Source of the DNA: Pseudoclavibacter sp. AY1F1
GTDB taxonomy: Bacteria; Actinomycetota; Actinomycetes; Actinomycetales; Microbacteriaceae
Direction: 5' to 3'
Assembly: GCF_002931075.1 (NCBI RefSeq)
Contig: NZ_PSTQ01000001.1
Span: 620,001 to 684,000, forward strand
DNA: 64,000 bases
In this document: piece after piece, positions 3,153 through 58,925 of the stretch
Numbering within the stretch: position 1 is the first letter of the stretch
Layout of the letters: every line of letters begins with the position of its first letter
Position numbers and translations under genes: made by a program
The notes under the pieces: model-generated
What the model was told of the DNA's origin: nothing
Database searches by the model: none
Seen by the model: only the letters and a program-made list of their open reading frames with translations

Positions 3153-3851
3153 CTCTCCACCCCTGGTCAGAGGCGCGTTCGCGCCGAGCGCCCGGATCCC
3201 GCGCGCTCTCCGTCGCAGTCAGCGATGCGGTGTTGCCAGTCGCGATTCTCGGTAGCTTTCGCTCGTTCCGGCGAGCCGACGCGTGTCGGCAATCGTCCGT
3301 AGGTAGTGGTCGCCCTGGGCCCCAAGCGACGACCGCGAGCTGGCACTCTTCGCCACTACGCCGGGTTCGCGCAGAGGAAGAGCAAGGGCGCCCACCTGGC
3401 AGCGAGGTCCACTGCCGTCCTCGACCCGGCTCTCCTCGTCAACCGACTCCGCATGCCGGGAGAGGACTCCAGCCCTGCTCCACACATGTGGGAAGTGTCG
3501 GCGGCGGACTATGTGTCGGGACTATTTAGGTGTGTCTTCGTCGTGATGTGACGGTTGAACAACCTGGTCTGTGTGACTGTTGTGTCCTAAGAATCTGAGC
3601 GATGGGCGCATGATTCGGTCAGACGACTCCCGTATTGGTGCGTCAGTTGGCGTGCCACGGGTCTACGTCGCTCATCTGAGTTTCTCTCCGATTACCAAGT
3701 GAACATGCGTGAAAAGAAGCTTGATTCGCGATGATTCTTCAACATCTTGTTCCGCCCATCGGATTCGGATCGTTCGGTTCTGACTTCACACGTGTCCCGC
3801 GGCTGCTTCGAACTGACGGAGCCAGGGCCTCGCCCCAGCCTGAGGAGATCT
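3153..3851. other. gene-free stretch downstream of tRNA-Val
   Basis: About 700 bases separate the tRNA from the next credible gene. Short open frames exist on both strands, but none has a recognisable product, a good ribosome site and codon use like the neighbours. Local base composition becomes more AT-rich after about 3510. The position 3' of a tRNA is a common site for element integration, but I see no integrase, no transposase and no repeat of the tRNA 3' end here. Confidence 0.5.
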
Positions 3852-4682
3852 ATGAAACAGCCACTATCGTCCGAGAATCAGAACAAGCCCACCAGGCGGA
3901 CCTTGCTCCAGGGGGCTGCGTGGACCATGCCCGTTCTTGCCGCAGCAGTCGCTGCGCCGATGTCTGCGGCCAGCGGTGTCAGCATGCGCGGCGTCGTCGG
4001 TGGCGACATGTACCACCTGGGCATCTGGAACATGGCTGCGCAGATCCCTATCGACTCACCCTTCACCCTTACCTACTCGGGTTCAGAACCCAATCGTTCG
4101 CCAAGCGATTTCGGCGTCGATGCCGATCCGGCGTCTCGCTGGGTCGGCAACGACGTGACTACTTCATGGGTCGTGCCGGCGGATGCCGGCTACCGTCTGA
4201 GCAACATCGTTGTCGTCTTTCCCTGGTGCGGAAACTCGCCGACGACCACACCGGTTCGGGAAGCGTACGCCGCTCAGTGGTCCGATACTGCGGGACGCTG
4301 GCTCAATGGCGACCCACGTCTTCTTCCGAACCTTCAGCGTCCCCCGGAAGGCAACCCGGAGTACGCGACGACACTCGTGAATCCGGGGACCTGGACCGCC
4401 AGCAGGTCACGCCTCGCAAGGACGCCGTTCTCCACGCACCGCCCCCTGCTCGGAAGCAACGACTTCGTCTTCACGCGGAGCGACGGCGTCTCGACAACAT
4501 CGACGACCAGCGACTCGGCCTCGATCTTCACCATCTCCGTTCCCATCGCCCAGCTGAACCCCGGCGAGGGGTTCACCGTGAACTACACGGCGCTCCGCGA
4601 GGTCGCGTTCATCAACGGGAACAGGTTCCACGGCTATGGGCTCCCGGCGTTCGTAATCGCGGATTACGAAGCGACCCCGTAA
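3852..4682 (+). CDS. Tat-exported protein of unknown function
   Basis: This 276-residue protein opens with a twin-arginine signal: TRRTLLQGAAW followed by a hydrophobic run TMPVLAAAVAAPMSAAS, suggesting folded export by the Tat pathway and cleavage near residue 40. The mature part is Ser/Thr/Pro-rich with predicted beta character and ends VIADYEATP; I recognise no catalytic motif and no C-terminal anchor or sortase signal. The ATG follows GAGGAG at ideal spacing. It stands alone between a gene-free gap and a convergent operon. Surface-protein families with a TRRTLLKGAAW-type leader are frequent in actinobacteria, which is the only basis for calling it a secreted surface protein. Confidence 0.72.
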   Translation: MKQPLSSENQNKPTRRTLLQGAAWTMPVLAAAVAAPMSAASGVSMRGVVGGDMYHLGIWNMAAQIPIDSPFTLTYSGSEPNRSPSDFGVDADPASRWVGNDVTTSWVVPADAGYRLSNIVVVFPWCGNSPTTTPVREAYAAQWSDTAGRWLNGDPRLLPNLQRPPEGNPEYATTLVNPGTWTASRSRLARTPFSTHRPLLGSNDFVFTRSDGVSTTSTTSDSASIFTISVPIAQLNPGEGFTVNYTALREVAFINGNRFHGYGLPAFVIADYEATP

Positions 4683-4992
4683 CCGCCGAGAAGGCACAGG
4701 GGGCAGGGGAGGGTGACGGTCTCCGTGCGACCGGCCCCATGCCCACGCTGCGCGGAGGCCCCGCCCAGTGCTGATGGGTCGTGAGGACCATCACTCTGCC
4801 GTGCGGATTGGTCCGTGCGGATTCGTCCGAGGGGATCGCGACCAACGGATGGCGCATCGCCCGAGGCGAGGGAGCGACCGCGGGCCGGCGTCACCCGCGC
4901 GCGTCCCGGCCAGTCCACCAGGAGGAAGATGGCCAGGGGGACCGTGAAGTGCGTTGGCAGGAGTCGGGTCCAAGCGGAGTGCCCGCCAGCCC
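4683..4992. other. convergent intergenic gap with short tandem repeat
   Basis: No gene is supported here. The stretch contains two adjacent near-identical 14-base units (GTGCGGATTGGTCC then GTGCGGATTCGTCC, about 4802-4829). Read on the minus strand, one frame gives a short hydrophobic stretch (HFTVPLAIFLLVDW) with no start or ribosome site, which could be a gene remnant but is too short to call. Confidence 0.4.
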
Positions 4993-5502
4993 TCAGCTGG
5001 CCTCCGCCCCGCCCACAGTCAACGCCTCCAGGTACCGGCGCGTCATCCGCGTCTGCACGGAGCGTGCGAGAGGCCCGCCGAGGCGTGTGAACCAGCGCCC
5101 CGGCTTGGAGAACGCGACGATGCTGAAGATGACGTCGCCGGAGTCGGCGAGCACGAGCTGGAATCGTTCTTCGCGTCGCTCCGGATGCCCCGGCAGGGTT
5201 CCGTAGGCGAAGCCGCACGTAGTGGGCGTCCGTTCGGCCCACACGACGCGGCAAGGGATTCTGAACTTCAGCGGACCGACACGCATCTGCATGATCACGA
5301 GTGAGCCCTTGCTGAGCGGAACGTCAGACAGCTCGATGGAGGCGCCCGCGCGACTCTGCGCGCGCCCGGCCAGGAGGTCGTCGGCTGCTCGCTCGAACGT
5401 GTCGCGCCCTCGCCCGATCACCAGCGATTCGCGCACGTGACGATAGCCGTCAGGCAGCTCGCCGGACGTCCATCCGACCTCCGCGTAGGTGAGCTCGGTC
5501 AT
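4993..5502 (-). CDS. DUF1990 family protein
   Basis: A 169-residue cytoplasmic protein matching the DUF1990 (UPF0548) family in length and motifs: TYAEVGWT at the N-terminus, IGRGRDTF, a central PCRVVW, and the family signature FAYGTLPGHPE followed by SIVAFSKPGRW. No biochemical role is established for the family. Its ATG overlaps the TGA of the upstream gene (ATGA at 5499-5502), so it is probably translationally coupled as the third gene of a small operon starting at 6651. Confidence 0.85.
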   Translation of the reverse strand: MTELTYAEVGWTSGELPDGYRHVRESLVIGRGRDTFERAADDLLAGRAQSRAGASIELSDVPLSKGSLVIMQMRVGPLKFRIPCRVVWAERTPTTCGFAYGTLPGHPERREERFQLVLADSGDVIFSIVAFSKPGRWFTRLGGPLARSVQTRMTRRYLEALTVGGAEAS

Positions 5503-6047
5503 GTACTGCTGGCCAGGGCTCGCATCATGTCGACGAGCTCGCGCGACACGACTTGCAGCTGACTTCGGCTGCCGATGATCGGCCGCGGGTAGGGCATGCG
5601 CGGGTCGGGGTCAGCTTGGCCGTGCAGTTGCAGGATGCGCCGCGCGACGGAGTGCAGCAGCTCCGCATCGTGCACGGGGTCACCGGAACTGAAAAGCCGG
5701 AGACTGCACTCCATTGAGTTCAGCCCGCGCCCGAGTTGCACGGCCAGGGCGCACTCGTCAGTCCCGACACCGACCTTTGCAGTGAAGGACCTGTTGCGCC
5801 CGCTCGAGAACCAGGAACCTTTGGAAACCGAAGCCCCGGCATCCCGGAACGCGGCCATGAACTCCGAGAGTGACAGCGCAGCGTAACCCCCGCCGGGGGT
5901 TGCGAGGTCATCGTCGTCGAAACGCCGCCGGGACTCGGCTGACCAGTCACGCTTGGCATCGCACCAGCGGTACCAGGCGTCTCCGAGACCCAGTCGCGCC
6001 AGGTCTACGATGAGGCGAGAGCCGCCGGAGGCAATGGAATCCGGCAT
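5499..6047 (-). CDS. hypothetical protein in DUF1990 operon
   Basis: A 182-residue soluble protein I do not recognise. It contains a conserved-looking centre (LQLGRGLNSMECSLRLFSSG-type strand region) and ends with a helical segment SRELVDMMRALASST. ATG at 6047 lies 4 bases after the upstream stop; another in-frame ATG at 6068 would overlap the upstream gene by 17 bases, so the exact start is uncertain. Context between an acidic unknown protein and a DUF1990 protein suggests a common, unknown function; the acidic, small, single-domain look resembles immunity-type proteins, but no toxin gene is near. Confidence 0.6.
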   Translation of the reverse strand: MPDSIASGGSRLIVDLARLGLGDAWYRWCDAKRDWSAESRRRFDDDDLATPGGGYAALSLSEFMAAFRDAGASVSKGSWFSSGRNRSFTAKVGVGTDECALAVQLGRGLNSMECSLRLFSSGDPVHDAELLHSVARRILQLHGQADPDPRMPYPRPIIGSRSQLQVVSRELVDMMRALASST

Positions 6048-6051
6048 GAGC

Positions 6052-6651
6052 TCAGATGTCCGTCTCATCGATGGCTGCGGGCTCCTCGTTCTTGACCTCA
6101 GCGACCCAGGCGTCGAAGGGGTCCGGTTCGCGAGTCTCCCAGCGCGCGGGCGCGTCGACGCCGAACTCTGCTTCGAGCCAGGCCCTGAACGGGGCGAGCG
6201 CCGCCACGGACTCCTCGTCCTCTTCAGATGGTTCCTCCACGACCACGTAGTCGTTCAGCTCCAGGTAGCCGATGGCGAGCAGGCGCAGAAAGTCGACGGC
6301 ATCGTCAGCGAGGTAGAGCCGCTCACCTTCTGAGCCGAGCACGACGAAGCGGATCGCGTCCGACGGATCCAGCCACAGCGCGGCGAAGCTGCCGCTCCCG
6401 TCTGTCTGTCCCAGCGGGAACAGGCGGTCGTAGCCGGGTTCGTCCGGCTCGAACCAGCCCGTCAGCGACTCGGTGGGGGAGAAGACGATACCGAGCTCGG
6501 CGGTGCCCGCGTACGGGGTGAGGAAGTACCCGTTGCGGTTCTCGAACCCCCAGCCCTGCGATTCCATCCACGACCAGGCCCGCTCGAGGGGTTCGGGGAT
6601 GCTGATGTCGTCTGGGAGCTTCGGCGCCAGGAGGTTCGTGAGGTGTGACAT
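6052..6651 (-). CDS. acidic hypothetical protein, first gene of operon
   Basis: This 199-residue, strongly acidic protein has an aromatic-rich N-terminal half (AWSWMESQGWGFENRNGYFL) and a middle segment IRFVVLGSEGERLYLADDAVDFL that resembles SUKH/SMI1-like folds, although I cannot confirm membership. The C-terminal third is Glu/Ala-rich. The start at 6651 was chosen because extending upstream would run through a terminator hairpin at 6702-6735. A weak CATGCT box 6 bases before the ATG hints at leaderless expression. Confidence 0.6.
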   Translation of the reverse strand: MSHLTNLLAPKLPDDISIPEPLERAWSWMESQGWGFENRNGYFLTPYAGTAELGIVFSPTESLTGWFEPDEPGYDRLFPLGQTDGSGSFAALWLDPSDAIRFVVLGSEGERLYLADDAVDFLRLLAIGYLELNDYVVVEEPSEEDEESVAALAPFRAWLEAEFGVDAPARWETREPDPFDAWVAEVKNEEPAAIDETDI

Positions 6652-50693: not shown

Positions 50694-52097
50694 ATGGCGA
50701 CACGCACGGGAGCTACCACGGCTACTGCAGAAGCAACCGAGGAAACCAAGAAGGCGCCGGCGCGCAAGCGCGCGACGCCGGTGAAGAAGGCGAGCGCAGA
50801 CACTGTCGCAGCCGTCGACACCGAGAGCACAGCAGACGAAACGGCGGCGAAGAAGCCCGCTGCGAAGCGCGCACCTGCGAAGCGTAAGACCGCAACTGCG
50901 GCCGAGGGGACGACCGCGAAGGCCGCACCCCGCAAGCGCGCTGCAGCGAAGAAGAAGGTCGAGGGTGACGAGCCCGAAGACGGCGCAGAAGAGGGCGAGA
51001 TCGAAGAGGTCGATGTCGACGCGGATGCGTCCGACAACGCAGACTCCGACGACGACTCGGTCAAGCCGGCCGACCCGAAGGACGCAAAGGCAGACACAGA
51101 GAAGGCGCGCGTTCAGGGCGCCATCGTTCTCACGCCAAGCGACGACGAGGAAGAGACTCCGGTCTACTCCGCGGCCATCACCGGTGCGACGGCTGACCCG
51201 GTCAAGGACTACCTGAAGCAGATCGGAAAGGTCGCACTGCTGAACGCGGCCGAAGAGGTTGACCTCGCCATGCGCATCGAGGCTGGCCTGTTCGCCGCCG
51301 AGAAGCTCAAGGAGCAGGAAGGTGAGCTCGACAAGCAGCTCGTCCGCGAGCTCAAGTGGGTCTCCCGAGACGGCGACCGGGCTAAGAGCCACCTCCTCGG
51401 AGCAAACCTCCGCCTGGTCGTGAGCCTCGCCAAGCGCTACACGGGTCGAGGAATGCAGTTCCTTGACCTCATCCAGGAGGGCAACATGGGCCTCATCCGT
51501 GCAGTCGAGAAGTTCGACTACACGAAGGGCTTCAAATTCTCCACTTACGCGACCTGGTGGATCCGCCAGGCCATCACGCGTGCAATGGCGGACCAGGCAC
51601 GCACGATCCGCATCCCGGTGCACATGGTCGAGGTCATCAACAAGCTCGCCCGCGTCCAGCGTCAGATGCTGCAGGACCTCGGTCGCGAGCCCACGCCGGA
51701 GGAGCTCGCCAAGGAGCTCGACATGACCCCTGAAAAGGTCGTCGAGGTGCAGAAGTATGGCCGCGAACCCATCTCGCTGCACACGCCGCTCGGTGAAGAC
51801 GGAGACAGCGAGTTCGGTGACCTCATCGAGGACACCGAGGCCGTAGTCCCCGCAGACGCGGTGAGCTTTACGATGCTGCAGCGCCAGCTCGAATCGCTGC
51901 TCGACTCGCTTGCCGAGCGCGAAGCTGGTGTCATTCGCATGCGCTTCGGCCTCGGAGACGGCATGCCGAAGACGCTCGATCAGATCGGCGACACGTTCGG
52001 TGTGACTCGAGAGCGCATCCGCCAGATCGAGTCCAAGACGATGGCCAAGCTGCGCCACCCGTCGCGCTCGCAGTCGCTGCGCGACTACCTCGAGTAG
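50694..52097 (+). CDS. rpoD: primary RNA polymerase sigma factor
   Basis: A 467-residue sigma-70 group 1 factor (SigA/HrdB type). The N-terminal 160 residues are a Lys/Ala/Asp/Glu-rich tail found in actinobacterial housekeeping sigmas. Region 1.2 starts at [21 protein letters not shown], region 2 has [26 protein letters not shown] and [17 protein letters not shown], and region 4 has [29 protein letters not shown] precedes the ATG. Confidence 0.96.
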
Positions 52098-52551: not shown

Positions 52552-52778
52552 GATGCCTCCAAAGCTTCGGTGATCTTGCGATCACGACAATTAGAGCACG
52601 GGCATTGGAATCCCGGGTGATTTGAGGGGTCAGGTTCGCCCTGCGCGTAGCAGCGGCGCCACCGCGTGACGTCCGTGGTCCCGACACGGGCCCGTGAGAT
52701 ACTGGCGGCGGTCGGCGAGGCGGGGGTCTCTCGCCGTTTCGACGGATGCGCAGACACTGCGCGGAAACGGGAGTGTGC

Positions 52779-54062
52779 ATGGGTGGCAAGCTGCGGCGAA
52801 TGATCGCCGTCGGTCTCGGACGGAGCGCGCGCGGAGCCATGCGTCTCCGCGGAGGTGGCTCCGCGGTGCCGGGGAGGGTGGCACTCGCCATCTCTCCGGA
52901 CTTCCTCGAGACGGCAGTGGCGAAACTTCCGCTCGGCGTCATCTTCGTCTCCGGGTCCAACGGCAAGTCCACGACCACGCACTTCCTCACCAGGATGCTG
53001 CGCCGCCACGGGCTGCGCGTCTTCACGAACTCCTCTGGTGGCAACCTCCCGCAGGGCATCGCTTCTTCGATGCTCCCTGACGTCGACGTCAACGGCAATC
53101 TTCGAGCTGACATCGCGGTACTGGAGGTCGACGAGGCCTACGGCCCGCGCCTCCTTGGGCACCTCCACCCTCGTGGAGTGCTCCTGCTCAACGTGCAGGT
53201 CGATCAGCTCAACCGCTTCTACGACCCGTCTCGGGTGACGGAGTTCCTCCGCACCATTGCCGGGGCCTGCGGCGACTTTAGCGTGCTGAACGCTGACGAC
53301 GCCTCGCTCCGGAGCCTTCCGCCGTCACTCGACGCGCCTGTGACGTGGTTCGGAGTCACCCCCGAACTCATCGAGCAGTCGCCGAACGGCCTCTCGAACT
53401 TCGATGACATCTCGGCCGCGAGCGTCGAGGTTGCTGCTGGTGATCGAGCTGTGCAAGTCGTCTCGCTGAACGGGCGGGACGCGACCCTCCGCTTCGGCGA
53501 TGAAGAGATCGCCATCCGCCTCCCTGCCCGCGGCCTGCACTACGCACTCGACGCCGCTGGCGCTGCCGCCACCGCTCAGCGCATCCTCGGCGACTCGTTT
53601 GTGCCCGCGCTCGTCGCGGAAGCGCTTGGCGAGTCGCAGACGGTCTACGGTCGTGGCGAAGTCATGAGCGTGCGTGGTGAGGAGATCGAGATCATCATGA
53701 TGAAGAACCCTCCGAGCCTGCAGATGAACCTGGATGCCCTCGAAGAGGCTCCCGAGCAGGTCTTCGTCTCCGTCGACGAGGGCACCCCGGACCCGTCGTG
53801 GATCTTCGGCGCCGACCTGAGCCGACTCGACCACGTCGACGTGGTCTCCGGCACAAAGGCGTGGCAGATCGCGACCAGGCTCGGCTACGGCGATATCCCC
53901 GTTGGCCTTGTTGAGCCCAGCCTCGGTGATGCACTGGACAAGTTCCTCGCTCTGCCGAAGCCAAGCAAGGGTATGAAGACGATGATCGTGAACTACGAGC
54001 AGATGATGTCGATCCGCCGCCGACTTGGGCAGTCCGGCATCGAGGGGAAGGCCAACTCATGA
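52779..54062 (+). CDS. MurT-like Mur ligase lacking the zinc ribbon
   Basis: A 427-residue Mur-ligase-family protein closest to MurT, which with GatD amidates the alpha-carboxyl of D-Glu in lipid II. ATP motif GSNGKSTTTHFL at residues 59-70, GGNLPQGIASSM, VDEAYGPRLL and LLNVQVDQLNRFYDP, then the DUF1727 domain with MMKNPPSLQMN. MurT normally has a Cys4 zinc ribbon inserted in the central domain; the equivalent stretch (about residues 165-260) contains no cysteine. GGGAG precedes ATG at 52779. Overlaps the GatD-like gene by ATGA. Confidence 0.85.
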   Translation: MGGKLRRMIAVGLGRSARGAMRLRGGGSAVPGRVALAISPDFLETAVAKLPLGVIFVSGSNGKSTTTHFLTRMLRRHGLRVFTNSSGGNLPQGIASSMLPDVDVNGNLRADIAVLEVDEAYGPRLLGHLHPRGVLLLNVQVDQLNRFYDPSRVTEFLRTIAGACGDFSVLNADDASLRSLPPSLDAPVTWFGVTPELIEQSPNGLSNFDDISAASVEVAAGDRAVQVVSLNGRDATLRFGDEEIAIRLPARGLHYALDAAGAAATAQRILGDSFVPALVAEALGESQTVYGRGEVMSVRGEEIEIIMMKNPPSLQMNLDALEEAPEQVFVSVDEGTPDPSWIFGADLSRLDHVDVVSGTKAWQIATRLGYGDIPVGLVEPSLGDALDKFLALPKPSKGMKTMIVNYEQMMSIRRRLGQSGIEGKANS

Positions 54063-54817
54063 TGTTGCGAATCGCGCACCTCTACCCGGTCGAGCTCGGG
54101 ATCAACGGCGACGTCGGCAACGTGACCGTGCTCGCCAAGCGCGCCAGAGCCCGCGGCCTCGAGGTCGAAGTTGTCAACGTCGGCCGTGGTGCCGTCGCGT
54201 TGCCAGACGCCGTCGACCTCCTCCACATCGGCTCCGGCCCGCTTGCAGCGGTGCAGACGGTCCAGTCGGATGCACTTCGGCACGCGATGCAGCTCCGCGA
54301 ACTCGTCACTGCCGGCATGCCGCTTCTCGCGGTCGGCGGCGGCTGGGAGCTGCTCGGCTCGAGCATCATCCACGACGACGGAGAGCTCGACGGCCTCGGC
54401 GTGTTCGCCTCGAAAGCCGTTCGCGAGCAGTCCCAGAGCGTCGCAGAAACTGTCGTACGTACCGACGGCGGCCTCCTCGCAGGGTTCGCCAACCACAACG
54501 CGGTGACGACACTCGATGCCGGCGCGAAAGCGCTCGGCGAGATCGTGCGCGGGTTCGGCAACGGCGGAGCGGCGGCGGAGAACGAAGGGTCGGAAGGCGC
54601 CAGACAGCTCAACGCGATCGGCACGCACCTGCACGGCCCGATTCTCGCCCTGAACCCTTCGCTGGCAGACCAGCTCCTCGAGCAGGCAGTTCAGCGCCGC
54701 GATGCCGACCACAGCCTCGGGGACGGCGGCGAGGAACTTGCCCGCCTTGACCTCTGGTCCAGGAACGCACGCCTCGCGCTCATGCGGCGGATCGGCCTGA
54801 CCGCTCCAGCTTCCTGA
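54059..54817 (+). CDS. GatD-like glutamine amidotransferase without catalytic Cys
   Basis: A 252-residue class I glutamine-amidotransferase-like protein (CobB/CobQ type) corresponding to GatD. The nucleophile elbow, CGGYQ in GatD, reads AVGGGWELLG here: Gly93 replaces the cysteine and the following Tyr-Gln is Trp-Glu. The partner region GTHLHGPILALNP retains the catalytic His. Without the cysteine it cannot release ammonia from glutamine by the known mechanism. It is coupled to the MurT-like gene by ATGA. Possible roles: structural partner of MurT, or a ligase using a different amine. Confidence 0.85.
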   Translation: MMLRIAHLYPVELGINGDVGNVTVLAKRARARGLEVEVVNVGRGAVALPDAVDLLHIGSGPLAAVQTVQSDALRHAMQLRELVTAGMPLLAVGGGWELLGSSIIHDDGELDGLGVFASKAVREQSQSVAETVVRTDGGLLAGFANHNAVTTLDAGAKALGEIVRGFGNGGAAAENEGSEGARQLNAIGTHLHGPILALNPSLADQLLEQAVQRRDADHSLGDGGEELARLDLWSRNARLALMRRIGLTAPAS

Positions 54818-54825
54818 CTCCGCCG

Positions 54826-54852
54826 CTGGGGGCGGGAAAGTCACGCCCCCAG
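54826..54852. terminator. terminator between gatD-like and racemase-like genes
   Basis: CTGGGGGCG and CGCCCCCAG pair in a 9-bp stem between the two convergent genes. Confidence 0.7.
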
Positions 54853-54875
54853 AGCTGAGGCTCGAGCGGGTTCGG

Positions 54876-55928
54876 TCAGGCCGCGGCGAAGTCGCGGAGT
54901 ACGCGCTTGGTGAGCCCGGTCACGATCTCGTCGCCGACCGTCTCGCCCCAGACGGCCCACTGCTCTGCCGTCGCCTCGCCGTGGGTGCCATCGCCGAACA
55001 CGATGCACTCGCTGCCGGCGGCAACCTGGCCGGCACCCGAGGGAAGTGCAACGACGGTCTCGTCGACGCCAACCTCGACGACCGGTGCCACGTGGCCGTC
55101 GACGAGAACAAACGCACCTCCGTCCGGGTCGGACTGGATGCCGTCGCCGAAGCCGACCGCGATGCTGGCCAGCCCGTGGCGCGCATCCAGCACCGGAGCT
55201 CGGAGCTGCATCGCCGGTCGCAGTCCGAGGTCGGCAGCGCTGCGGTCGCCGAACGGCGAGATGCCGTAGGCAGCTATGCCAACGCGCACGAGGTCAAAGT
55301 GGGCCTCCGGGAGGTCGATGACGGCTGCGCTCGCCCCGAGATGCAGCAGCTCGAATTGCGCGCCGAGCGACCTGGCCTCTTCTACGGCCGAGCGGAACAG
55401 CGCGGTCGATTCGAGGTCGGCACTGTGCGAGGTATCGGACAGGTGGCTCCAGGCCGCTACAACTTCGACCTTGCCAAGGGCCTGCAAGCGCAGTGCCTCG
55501 GTCACGAACTCGGTCCAGCGTGGCTGGTCAGCGCCACCGCGATGCAACCCCGTGTCGATCTTCAGGTGCACGCGCGGGACAACCCCAGCACCGCTCGCGG
55601 CGATCGCCTCGAGCTGCCAGAATGTCTGCACGCCGAGATCGATGCGTGCCTCAGCTGCCGCTGCGAAGTCGGTGTCCCGGCCGTGCATCCAAGCGAAGAG
55701 AGGGACGTCGACGCCCGAGCTGCGAAGCTCGAGTCCAGCGGTCGACTCCAGGACGCCGAAGGAAGTCACACCAGCGTCAAGTGCTGTGCGCACAACCTCG
55801 TGGAGGCCGTGGCCGTAGGCGTTGGACTTCACGGCGAGCATGAACTGCGACTGTGGGGCGAGGGCTTCGAGTGTCTGGATGTTGTGGCGGATAGCCCCGA
55901 GATCGACGTGCGCGGTGGCCCGGTTCAT
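54876..55928 (-). CDS. alanine-racemase-like protein with PLP lysine but no catalytic Tyr
   Basis: A 350-residue fold-type III PLP protein. The TIM barrel is complete: DLGAIRHNI, the PLP lysine K34 in AVKSNAYGHG, KIDTGLHRGG, SHLSDTSHSAD, and VRVGIAAYGISPFGD. The C-terminal beta domain is altered: the catalytic Tyr of VGYADG is Phe (VGF260GDG), the Arg-Ser-Asn that follows is missing, and SMDQ is replaced by GVDET. Alone it should not racemise alanine by the two-base mechanism. Its ATG overlaps the stop of the upstream racemase-like gene (ATGA), strongly suggesting a complex with that protein. Confidence 0.88.
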   Translation of the reverse strand: MNRATAHVDLGAIRHNIQTLEALAPQSQFMLAVKSNAYGHGLHEVVRTALDAGVTSFGVLESTAGLELRSSGVDVPLFAWMHGRDTDFAAAAEARIDLGVQTFWQLEAIAASGAGVVPRVHLKIDTGLHRGGADQPRWTEFVTEALRLQALGKVEVVAAWSHLSDTSHSADLESTALFRSAVEEARSLGAQFELLHLGASAAVIDLPEAHFDLVRVGIAAYGISPFGDRSAADLGLRPAMQLRAPVLDARHGLASIAVGFGDGIQSDPDGGAFVLVDGHVAPVVEVGVDETVVALPSGAGQVAAGSECIVFGDGTHGEATAEQWAVWGETVGDEIVTGLTKRVLRDFAAA

Positions 55929-56623
55929 GTGTAGCTCCGTTCGAATCGCGGACTCATCCGGCTTGCGATCGCCGCGGCCCTCAGACCCGTCGCGTGCTGC
56001 CAGTCGAGGATGCTCGGCTCGCCGAGAGCCGGATCGCCGAACAGGATCGCCAGATCACCCGGGGCGACCTCGGCGCCAAGCAGGTCTACCGAGAACTGGT
56101 CCATGGAGATCGCCCCGACGATGGTTCGAGTCTGGCCACCGAGGAGAACGGGTGCCGTGTTGGATGCCCGCCGGACGACGCCGTGCGCGTAGCCGACGCC
56201 GACAAGCGCCAGCTGGGTCTGCCTCGTCGTGACATAGCTGTAGCCATAGGAGACACCTTCGCCAGGCCCGATGTCCTTGACGGCGAGCACCTCAGCGCTC
56301 ACCCGCATCGCCGGGCGGTATGCGCGGTCGGTGAGCCCGAAGAGGGAGCCTCCAGTGATCTTGTCCGAGTTGACCGAGTCGGCGTCCAGCAGCTTTGTGC
56401 GCAGGTGCGAGAGGGAGCCTCGGTCGAGCTCGGGGGACACGATGAAGCCCTCGTAGCCTTCACCGTCGAGCGCCTCGGCCACGCGGAGCGCGCCATGGCC
56501 GTATGCGTCGGCTCGGAGGTCGGCGTAGCTGGCGGTCTCGGATCCCAAGAGTCTGGTGGAGTTCTCGCGGATCGCGCGAAGGTCGATGTGGATGCGTCTG
56601 CGCACCGGCTCGGGAGTCTGCAC
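55925..56623 (-). CDS. truncated alanine-racemase-like protein with catalytic Tyr but Arg for PLP Lys
   Basis: A 232-residue protein: residues 11-60 resemble the start of the racemase barrel, but the PLP lysine is Arg37 (DLRADAYGHG), about 100-130 residues of barrel are missing, and residues 90-232 form an intact C-terminal domain with VSYGYSYVTT, catalytic Y145 in VGYAHGVVRRASN and SMDQ (173-176). Because racemase active sites combine Lys of one subunit with Tyr of the other, this protein could complement the next gene's product. GTG start with GAGGG. Intact frame and tight coupling argue against a pseudogene. Confidence 0.87.
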   Translation of the reverse strand: MQTPEPVRRRIHIDLRAIRENSTRLLGSETASYADLRADAYGHGALRVAEALDGEGYEGFIVSPELDRGSLSHLRTKLLDADSVNSDKITGGSLFGLTDRAYRPAMRVSAEVLAVKDIGPGEGVSYGYSYVTTRQTQLALVGVGYAHGVVRRASNTAPVLLGGQTRTIVGAISMDQFSVDLLGAEVAPGDLAILFGDPALGEPSILDWQHATGLRAAAIASRMSPRFERSYT

Positions 56624-56825
56624 GTTGTGCCCTCTCTTGTCGTCGCTGGGCTTGGTCAGGCTAGCACCGGCGCTTCAAGGCCCGGCTGAGGCGCGCGTGG
56701 GGCCACCGTGGTGTGGGAGGCCCCCGAATGCGCGCATCCGGTCTACGCTCGAAGGTGGCCTGCCGCTGTCTGCGGCTGTGCTGAGATCGAACGCAAGGCA
56801 ACCCAGAAGAAGGACGTGGACCTCG

Positions 56826-58925
56826 GTGGCGAATTCCGGAGACGCATACTCAGCCAGACACCTCTCGGTGCTCGACGGGCTCGATGCGGTTCGGAAGAGG
56901 CCCGGCATGTACATCGGGTCAACGGATTCCCGCGGGCTCATGCACTGCCTCTGGGAGATCATCGACAACTCGGTTGACGAGGCGCTCGCCGGCCACGGCT
57001 CGCGCATCCGGGTTCAGTTGCACAGCGATGGATCCGTCAGCGTTGACGATGACGGGCGAGGAGTCCCCGTCGACATCGAGCCCAAGACTGGCCTGAGCGG
57101 CGTCGAGGTGGTCTTCACGAAGCTGCATGCCGGCGGAAAGTTCGGCGCGAGCAACTACGGCTCCGCCGGTGGACTGCACGGCGTGGGCGCCTCCGTCGTC
57201 AACGCGCTCTCCGCCCGTCTCGACGTCGAGGTTGACCGCGGCGGCAAGACCTACGCCATGAGCTTCCGCCGAGGCGAGCCCGGCATCTTCGAGGACGGGT
57301 CAGGCGGACCGAGCCCGACGTCGAACTTCGTTCCGTTCATCAAGACGAGCGAGCTCCGTGTCGTTGGCAAGGCGAAGCGCGGCGTCACCGGGACGCGCGT
57401 GCGCTACTGGGCTGACCCGCAGGTCTTCATCAAGGAGGCGAGCTTCCAGACCAACGACCTCGCCGAGCGGGCGAGGCAGACGGCGTTCCTCGTGCCTGGG
57501 CTCGAGATGGTGATCGAGGACGCCAGGGACGAGTCGTCGCAGCCGACGACACAGCAGTTCCGCTTCGACGGCGGCATCACCGAGTTCGCCGACTTCCTGG
57601 CTCCAGATGCGCCCACTACCGACACCTGGCGGATCGAGGGGAGCGGGGAGTTCACCGAGACCATCCCAGTGCTGGATGACGAGGGCCTCCAGCTCGTCAC
57701 GAAAGAGGTCGCGCGCACGATGCACGTCGATCTCGCTCTCCGCTGGGGTACCGGTTATGAGACGAACGTCAAGAGCTTCGTCAACATCATCTCGACACCG
57801 AAGGGCGGCTCTCACCTCGCCGGTTTCGAACAGGGGATGCTCCGGTTCTTCCGAGCAGAGGTCGAGAAGAACGCCAGGCGGCTCAAGGTGGGCAACGACA
57901 AGCTCGACAAGGACGATGTCCTCGCCGGGCTCACCGCGGTCGTGACCGTCCGCATCCCAGAGCCGCAATTCGAGGGACAGACGAAGGAAGTGCTCGGCAC
58001 GCCCGCTGCGCGCGCGATCGTCCAGAAGGCCGTCACCGCCGGACTGACGGAGAAGTTCGCCTCGACGAAGCGTCAGGACAAGGCGGAATCCAATCTCCTC
58101 CTCGACAAGGTCGTGCAGGAGATGAAGTCGCGGCTCTCCGCCCGCGCCCACAAGGAGACCCAGCGCCGCAAGAACGCGCTCGAGAGCTCTTCGCTACCCA
58201 CGAAGCTCGTCGACTGCCGCTCGAACGACGTCGCGCAGAGCGAGCTCTTCATCGTCGAGGGAGACTCCGCGCTCGGAACGGCGAAGCCTGCCCGCAACTC
58301 GGAGTTCCAGGCGCTCCTCCCGATCCGCGGCAAGATCCTCAACGTGCAGAAGGCGTCCATCTCGGACATGCTCTCCAACTCGGAGTGCGCATCGATCATC
58401 CAAGTCGTCGGGGCGGGCTCCGGTCGCAGCTTCGACATCGGCCAGGCACGCTACGGCAAGGTGATCCTGATGAGCGACGCTGATGTCGACGGCGCGCACA
58501 TCCGCACTCTGCTCCTCACCCTGTTCTTCCGCTACATGCGTCCCATGCTCGACGCGGGGCGCGTCTACGCGGCGGTGCCGCCTCTGCACCGGGTGGTCAT
58601 CATGCATGCCGGCCGCAAGCCGAACGAAACCGTGTACACCTATTCCGAGAAGGAGTTGCACACGTTGCTGTCGAAGCTCGACAAGCAGGGCAAGCGCTAC
58701 CAGGACCCCATCCAGCGGTATAAGGGCCTCGGCGAGATGGACGAGGACCAGCTCTGGAACACGACGATGGACCCGAGCGCGCGTCTGCTCCGGCGGGTCA
58801 CCAACGCTGACGCGCACAACGCTGAGCGCGTCTTCGACCTGCTGATGGGCAGCGACGTGGCGCCTCGCAAGGAGTTCATCATCGAGGGATCAGAGCAGAT
58901 CGCGCGGGCAGACATCGACGTCTAG
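56826..58925 (+). CDS. parE: DNA topoisomerase IV subunit B (type IIA ATPase subunit)
   Basis: A 699-residue GHKL ATPase/TOPRIM subunit: RKRPGMYIGSTDSRGLMHCL, IIDNSVDEALAG, VDDDGRGVPVDIEPKTG, GSAGGLHGVGASVVNAL, then EGDSALGTAKPARNSEFQA and SDADVDGAHIRTLLL. It pairs with the ParC-type subunit encoded convergently. GTG at 56826 is preceded by AAGGA eleven bases upstream. Could be called gyrB-like; the GL-G-EVVFTKLHAGGKF spelling and partner gene favour ParE. Confidence 0.93.
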   Translation: MANSGDAYSARHLSVLDGLDAVRKRPGMYIGSTDSRGLMHCLWEIIDNSVDEALAGHGSRIRVQLHSDGSVSVDDDGRGVPVDIEPKTGLSGVEVVFTKLHAGGKFGASNYGSAGGLHGVGASVVNALSARLDVEVDRGGKTYAMSFRRGEPGIFEDGSGGPSPTSNFVPFIKTSELRVVGKAKRGVTGTRVRYWADPQVFIKEASFQTNDLAERARQTAFLVPGLEMVIEDARDESSQPTTQQFRFDGGITEFADFLAPDAPTTDTWRIEGSGEFTETIPVLDDEGLQLVTKEVARTMHVDLALRWGTGYETNVKSFVNIISTPKGGSHLAGFEQGMLRFFRAEVEKNARRLKVGNDKLDKDDVLAGLTAVVTVRIPEPQFEGQTKEVLGTPAARAIVQKAVTAGLTEKFASTKRQDKAESNLLLDKVVQEMKSRLSARAHKETQRRKNALESSSLPTKLVDCRSNDVAQSELFIVEGDSALGTAKPARNSEFQALLPIRGKILNVQKASISDMLSNSECASIIQVVGAGSGRSFDIGQARYGKVILMSDADVDGAHIRTLLLTLFFRYMRPMLDAGRVYAAVPPLHRVVIMHAGRKPNETVYTYSEKELHTLLSKLDKQGKRYQDPIQRYKGLGEMDEDQLWNTTMDPSARLLRRVTNADAHNAERVFDLLMGSDVAPRKEFIIEGSEQIARADIDV

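Follow-up and report, generated by a model that had tools for sequence, protein, structure and literature searches.

A candidate modular locus for the group B peptidoglycan cross-bridge behind rpoD in Microbacteriaceae

A four-gene locus directly behind rpoD in Pseudoclavibacter sp. AY1F1 (Microbacteriaceae) encodes a MurT-like Mur ligase, a GatD-like glutaminase subunit that lacks its catalytic Cys, and two complementary parts of an alanine racemase (here AlrA and AlrB), and by comparing its sequence with that of its relatives we conclude that it is a modular locus for the cross-bridge of group B peptidoglycan. The locus lies in a stretch of 64,000 nucleotides (contig NZ_PSTQ01000001.1, positions 620,001 to 684,000 of the forward strand), which we call the window and in which positions are counted from the first letter. 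Group B walls are cross-linked at D-Glu-2 rather than at residue 3, a property that has served as a taxonomic character for half a century; other group B lineages are Erysipelothrix and Eubacterium/Acetobacterium. An earlier note on the window, made from the letters alone, had proposed a group B cross-bridge locus at this place, and the idea finds support in the distribution of the genes, the replacement of the ligase within one slot, the presence of a transaminase in some loci, and the bridge of Clavibacter. In our assessment the locus probably makes the group B cross-bridge, with MurT activating the alpha-carboxyl of D-Glu and adding an amino acid rather than ammonia. We lean, with somewhat more reserve, toward the wider proposal that the genetic basis of group B peptidoglycan is a single slot behind rpoD. 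Its occupants would be unrelated amide ligases (the MurT-GatD complex with its dead glutaminase, a CofE-like ligase, an ATP-grasp enzyme) that swap even within a genus, decide which amino acid goes onto the D-Glu alpha-carboxyl and are fed by a racemase of two complementary half-dead subunits. Ligation of an amino acid is favored because the glutaminase has been lost, both subunits are under selection, the slot swaps ligases, and racemase and transaminase genes are neighbors. In the openly licensed literature that we searched, we found no paper naming the enzymes of the group B cross-bridge; the swappable ligases and the racemase make the group B question testable, and, if the proposal is true, wall type could be read from the genome.

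The MurT-like protein (52779..54062, + strand) belongs to the Microbacteriaceae-specific type II described below, and the gene for the GatD-like protein (54059..54817, +) follows with a 4-base overlap, ATGA. The pair resembles the lipid II isoglutaminyl synthase MurT-GatD of S. aureus (PDB 6GS2) and S. pneumoniae (PDB 6FQB) in its two-gene order, its middle and C-terminal Mur ligase domains, its P-loop (GSNGKSTT), its GatD fold and HGP loop, and the triad Asp349 of MurT, which lies in the PDPSW of a DEGTPDPSW loop (the number was counted by eye along the 6GS2 alignment) and is conserved in the sequences displayed. The likeness ends at the glutaminase site: the window GatD aligns to S. aureus GatD with E 7.3e-28, and where a lipid II isoglutaminyl synthase has its catalytic Cys94 it has Gly (AVGGGWELLG), with the His of the HGP motif (His189) kept as HLHGP. 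Passages of two reports on the S. aureus enzyme state that GatD C94G or C94S abolishes amidation (PMC6113224, PMC6085368), and the window GatD looks like a dead glutaminase. Also unlike the known pairs, the window pair has a rewired loop for DNAAD, sits behind rpoD and beside a racemase, and scores far below the equivalog cut-offs: GatD, which matches GATase_3 with E 5.9e-16, reaches 113.2 bits (cut-off 450) and 86.5 bits (cut-off 400) against the NCBIfam GatD equivalogs, and MurT reaches 93.5 bits (cut-off 800), which places it outside the isoglutaminyl synthase equivalog. Searched alone, MurT matches Mur_ligase_M (E 3.1e-8) and scores 23.5 bits against MurT_C (cut-off 25); in a profile search of the whole genome its MurT_C score is 26.9 bits, the sole match to that domain, alongside six matches to Ala_racemase_N. 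The ATG-started frame of MurT spans 52746-54062, and the alternative ATG at 52779 is preceded by a purine-rich stretch. We weighed a missing Zn ribbon as a signature of the MurT clade and dropped the idea, since displayed Cys-bearing Micrococcales sequences lack CxxC too.

The distribution of Cys-less GatD and of the split racemase, which the earlier note had named beforehand as a check, agrees with its proposal. Among 157 GatD rows (8 of them repeats of loci fetched twice), the nucleophile column holds Cys in 43, another residue in 113 and an unreadable entry in 1 (L143; L numbers denote loci and G numbers genomes), with Gly, Ala, Ser, Asn, Thr or His as the replacements seen across relatives. 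All 30 rows from outside Microbacteriaceae have Cys, as do 13 Microbacteriaceae rows; the outside rows are the best-scoring of about 168 matching non-family genomes (from 296 genomes of the class, searched with the canonical GatD model) and are thus biased toward canonical pairs. The GatD His is lost as well in many Microbacteriaceae members and kept in many others, the window GatD included, and its loss in so many fits a dead glutaminase rather than a GatD retained for ammonia handling.

The family sample comprised 149 Microbacteriaceae genomes, 122 with some MurT and 27 without, as judged from searches that scored the best 11-12 first-look candidates per genome and that a very divergent MurT could escape. 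In a FastTree phylogeny of 150 MurT sequences, the Cys-less Microbacteriaceae MurTs form a single clade of 96 (support 0.99), made up of 33 type I sequences, 60 of type II, and L132, L136 and L137; none of its readable members has the GatD Cys, and it is sister to a Cys-bearing Micrococcales clade (joint support 0.992). The MurT of the same-genus genome G417 groups with that of Pseudoclavibacter sp. RFBB5. L132 and L137 (in G403 and G436) are second Cys-less copies in genomes that hold a type I pair as well. Types III and IV form, with L164, a separate clade (support 0.957) in which the GatD Cys is lost too, so that the Cys has been lost at least two times, both within Microbacteriaceae as sampled. 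Among the best 80 of 341 named loci from a single public genome scan, 77 have a residue other than Cys, 1 has Cys (L247) and 2 are unreadable (L238, L246). In this set, the genera nearest type II are Clavibacter, Agreia, Leifsonia, Microbacterium, Subtercola, Herbiconiux, Curtobacterium, Frigoribacterium, Mycetocola, Okibacterium and Pseudoclavibacter, and those nearest type I are Agromyces, Cryobacterium, Rathayibacter, Plantibacter, Naasia and Galbitalea, with one Cryobacterium bin (L199) nearest type II instead. This distribution would fit a group B cross-bridge ligase, with wall types taken from the literature on genera or strains.

Relative to two other Pseudoclavibacter genomes, dN/dS is about 0.04 for MurT, 0.15-0.16 for GatD, 0.10-0.13 for AlrA and 0.09-0.10 for AlrB, compared with 0.05-0.06 for RpoD; because these values are purifying and the Cys loss is common to a large supported clade, we take the genes to be real, beyond what chance would give. 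The faster divergence of GatD (about 0.15 vs 0.04 for MurT), and the MurT-like gene of L164, for which no GatD was found, would both suit a Cys-less GatD that is decaying while the ligase works without it. We regard such decay as very unlikely: a GatD-model match stands beside MurT in every other MurT locus read (a few of them weak, and L143 unreadable as GatD), the MurT and GatD gene ends overlap, selection is purifying, and the 0.93-Mb genome G308 keeps GatD. That small genome (one contig of 927303 bases; L151/L343) retains the arrangement rpoD-MurT-GatD (Cys to Ser)-AlrAB, and a group B wall would be predicted for it.

The position of the locus is shared as well. Where the sequence upstream of the locus exceeds 1.1 kb, MurT lies directly behind rpoD in 32/32 type I, 59/59 type II and 8/8 type III cases, vs 0/11 for the Cys-bearing Microbacteriaceae pairs. 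The window rpoD (sigA; 50694..52097, +; NCBIfam match) is the conserved upstream border of this slot, and a gyrB/parE-type topoisomerase subunit gene (56556..58925, +; NCBIfam match; the start is that of the listed frame and probably lies later) forms its downstream border here and in other Microbacteriaceae loci. Most MurT-less genomes carry a different ligase at this place: a CofE-like protein (PF01996) is present in 21 of the 27, its gene being seen between rpoD and the downstream border in 20 (in L314 a transaminase comes first) and on another contig in G335, where rpoD is near a contig end. Across all 149 genomes, 24 have a CofE-like match, which is strong in 21 (at least 374.9 bits, all MurT-less) and weak in the 3 MurT-bearing genomes G344, G404 and G425; a strong match occurs in 21/27 genomes without MurT vs 0/122 with it (Fisher 1.5e-20, uncorrected for relatedness). 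MurT-less genomes had been considered as counter-evidence and were dropped as such once the same slot showed the CofE-like ligase. This protein shares its Pfam family with the F420-0:gamma-glutamyl ligase CofE and differs from CofE in its scores (32.6 bits for L318 against an equivalog cut-off of 180.65, and no NCBIfam match for L167); a profile of it found no match at E 0.01 among PDB sequences. Of the 21 genomes, 19 also have an ATP-grasp protein (PF14397), 12 have AlrAB and 1 has a MurJ-type flippase (L331). Slot contents vary within 12 genera (g2, g3, g112, g114, g140, g144, g150, g159, g160, g167, g175 and g180): the Microbacterium-like g3 holds type II MurT-GatD or the CofE-like gene and the Agromyces-like g2 holds type I or the CofE-like gene, the genus names being inferred from the nearest named MurT.

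The six remaining MurT-less genomes differ among themselves: the rpoD and gyrB/parE matches stand only 522-539 bases apart in G312, G342 and G402, they are separated by 3.0 kb with other genes in G340 and G400 (a solute-binding protein in G400), and the slot is cut by a contig end in G352. A Cys-bearing pair occurs in 17 of the 149 genomes, with the Cys read in 13 and G405, G409, G414 and G435 judged from genus-mates. The slot holds a type II pair in three of these (G345, G355, G405), and in the other 14 nothing in it matched MurT, the CofE-like or ATP-grasp proteins or Alr, with a murE-like gene in G429 as the one exception; the gap between the border matches is 20-712 bases in 13 of the 14. 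Genomes without a Cys-bearing pair have the slot filled in 124 cases and unfilled in 6, vs 3 filled and 14 unfilled with such a pair (Fisher 1.7e-12), where the 124 were obtained by subtraction and count the unfetched MurT genomes G378, G380, G396 and G434 as filled, the 6 are G300, G312, G340, G342, G400 and G402, and G344 and G352 are excluded. We predict that the 14 Cys-bearing genomes with no such ligase in the slot have amidated, non-B walls. The slot frame of G429 (520 residues), which gave a weak MurT-model match, was rejected as a MurT and is MurE-like; this murE-like gene (L368, 6640-8199, −) lies between rpoD and gyrB/parE, and the Cys-bearing MurT-GatD of G429 lies elsewhere in the genome.

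The second half of the window locus encodes AlrA (54876..55928, −) and AlrB (55925..56623, −) on the opposite strand, facing MurT and GatD, which share the strand of rpoD. AlrB and AlrA likewise overlap by ATGA, and the overlaps in both gene pairs suggest that the partners are made in equal amounts; profile matches and frames agree with the four genes that the earlier note had placed here. AlrA keeps the barrel with its PLP-Lys motif, with Phe in place of the trans-acting Tyr and VD in place of Met-Asp, and AlrB has Arg for the PLP-Lys and has lost most of the barrel, keeping Tyr and Met-Asp-Gln. The barrel and the Tyr/Met-Asp residues that a single-chain alanine racemase would combine are split over two proteins, here and in 59 distinct pairs. 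Pairs were selected by requiring Lys and barrel in A, and absence of the barrel and presence of the Met column in B, so those traits are not evidence. The PLP-lysine is found in 0/59 AlrB (Arg 35, other residues 5, column unaligned 19), Met is followed by Asp or Asn in 59/59, and the Tyr column holds Tyr in 45 and Phe in 14; AlrA retains Met-Asp in 1/59 and Tyr in 11/59, with these columns unaligned in 9. Because the Lys of each active site in an Alr homodimer belongs to one chain, with Tyr and Met-Asp reaching in from its partner, such complementary losses would leave the AlrA/AlrB pairs with exactly one active site. Like Alr (S. lavendulae 1VFH, TIGR00492), the two proteins jointly hold one full catalytic residue set; unlike homodimeric Alr, they are two genes, and one of the two sites is erased by the deleted barrel of AlrB and the lost Met-Asp of AlrA. 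An AlphaFold2 model of AlrB (22-sequence alignment; pLDDT 92.5, pTM 0.88) has 1VFH as its best PDB match in Foldseek (TM 0.85 by query length). Among the papers listed by a literature search, we found no earlier report of a split alanine racemase, which, if true, would cleanly exemplify a dimeric enzyme that retains one of two active sites. Outside these 59 pairs, the B partner of L107, L117, L118 and L126 retains a full-length barrel in which Thr, Ser or Asp replaces the Lys, which may be a step on the way to the split form.

Of the 60 type II entries, 28 (that of the window and 27 others) have AlrAB at the locus, as against none of the 33 type I entries, for many of which the flank is only 1.5 kb long; L077 (type II) shows AlrA only before its contig ends. 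The best 80 of the 341 named loci agree, with both Alr genes at 24/45 loci nearest type II and 0/34 nearest type I, and two or more Alr-family matches occur in 49/58 type II genomes vs 5/31 type I genomes (Fisher 2.7e-10, relatedness uncorrected). Several named genera of type II (Clavibacter, Herbiconiux, Subtercola, Curtobacterium and Frondihabitans) lack AlrAB and have two full-length tandem Alr genes elsewhere; one tandem copy has Phe for Tyr in Clavibacter (L270) and Met-Asn-Ala for Met-Asp-Gln in Curtobacterium (L277, L280), suggesting a changed substrate. The earlier note's view of the split racemase as the supply of the D-amino acid holds in part: AlrAB occurs alongside type II and type IV MurT and in 12 of the CofE-like genomes, and it is not obligatory, being absent at all type I loci. 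That absence, and the failure to see AlrAB beside MurT in L166, L168 and L169 (two of them on short contigs), would be expected if the genes were unrelated neighbors, AlrAB simply an alanine racemase and MurT-GatD acting elsewhere in the wall. We consider this decidedly improbable, as the genome already has another Alr (L351, in an alr-tsaE-tsaB operon), AlrAB shares one place with CofE-like ligases and with MurT of types II and IV, and type II genomes mostly hold an extra Alr match. The L351 racemase (3848-6235, −) carries in a single frame an AlrA-like half and then an AlrB-like half, a fusion of the two parts that are separate in AlrAB.

A link to the bridge residue comes from an EctB-type diaminobutyrate transaminase encoded at the locus in three genomes (601.8 bits in L314, 603 in L172 and 590.6 in L197; cut-off 552.2). 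It is accompanied by the CofE-like and ATP-grasp proteins in L314, by these and AlrAB in L172, and in L197 by a MurT-GatD pair of type II and by a fragment of a racemase where the contig ends. The wall of Clavibacter michiganensis is described in one part of PMC9603630 as having the stem Gly-D-Glu-L-diaminobutyrate-D-Ala, with D-diaminobutyrate joining D-Glu to D-Ala (type B2gamma), and Clavibacter L173 has, behind rpoD, a type II MurT-GatD in which Gly replaces the GatD Cys. The earlier note's suggestion that Gly is the residue added is unsupported; it need not be Gly, and in Clavibacter it would be D-diaminobutyrate. According to a passage of PMC10757982, Microbacterium strains differ in the diamino acid of their walls, with L-Lys, D-Orn and diaminobutyrate as the variants. 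This variability parallels the variable slot in the Microbacterium-like genus g3. Diaminobutyrate walls also occur in some type I genera (Agromyces, Rathayibacter, Cryobacterium); with Clavibacter in type II, diaminobutyrate genera fall in both types, and a simple mapping of types I and II on the bridge residue was rejected.

The same neighbors bear on whether the pair could still be an amidase, in which MurT would use free ammonia with GatD as a mere scaffold and D-Glu would be amidated as in group A. Such chemistry has a precedent in S. aureus MurT/GatD, which uses ammonia at pH 8.5 while still needing GatD, as noted in a passage of PMC6085368, and MurT Asp349 is kept in the displayed sequences and the GatD His in many, that of the window included. 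An amidase is nonetheless unlikely, in our view, since the protein found in 21 of the 27 MurT-less genomes, and in the slot in 20, is related to an enzyme that ligates an amino acid, the diaminobutyrate transaminase and racemase adjoin either ligase, the GatD His is lost in many members as well, and the alpha-carboxyl is occupied by the cross-link in group B walls, as the part of PMC9603630 on Clavibacter indicates.

Several observations weigh against a group B cross-bridge slot. The type IV pair of G344 lies away from rpoD, as do the Cys-less pairs L132 and L137, and 14 of the 17 Cys-bearing genomes and 6 others have no recognized type B ligase in the slot; should these too have group B walls, another enzyme would do the work and the locus would be one route among others. 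AlrAB is missing at type I loci, yet some type I genera have diaminobutyrate walls, so AlrAB would not be needed for every such bridge. Phe stands for Tyr in 14/59 AlrB and some pairs have no Tyr in either subunit, for which a standard two-base racemase is doubtful. Finally, related genomes inflate the counts.

For group B cross-bridge synthesis we infer the following scheme, covering the reaction, the residue added, the heterodimer and the role in the wall. MurT would bind the lipid-linked precursor and ATP and, by analogy with its amidating relatives, convert the D-Glu alpha-carboxyl into an acyl phosphate. GatD, having lost its Cys, would no longer hydrolyze glutamine and would be retained as a structural partner in the ligase, where it would adapt the site to an amino acid, rather than ammonia, as the nucleophile. 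The product would be a D-Glu bearing the first bridge residue, which a transpeptidase would then link to the D-Ala-4 of a neighbor. AlrA and AlrB, given their complementary losses in 59 pairs, would form an obligate heterodimer with one active site, to which AlrA would contribute the barrel and PLP-lysine and AlrB the Met-Asp and usually the Tyr; it would supply a D-amino acid, for which diaminobutyrate, ornithine or a similar diamino acid is the likeliest candidate. Elsewhere in the Microbacteriaceae, the ligase of the slot would be the CofE-like enzyme, usually with the ATP-grasp enzyme. If true, the scheme shows how an amidotransferase can become an amino acid ligase.

Among the less common arrangements, type III pairs (L154-L161) have His at the GatD Cys position and a MurT with a Zn ribbon, and an ATP-grasp protein is found near 4 of the 8 loci (L156-L159). 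Type IV MurT-GatD (L162, L163 and L367; genomes G344 and G404) has a Zn ribbon and adjoins the weak CofE-like gene; AlrAB adjoins the type IV pair in G404, and in G344 AlrAB alone occupies the rpoD slot. Two of the named loci, L247 from a genome bin labelled Saccharibacteria and L187 titled Planococcus, carry actinobacterial MurT genes, and their labels look wrong or the bins mixed.

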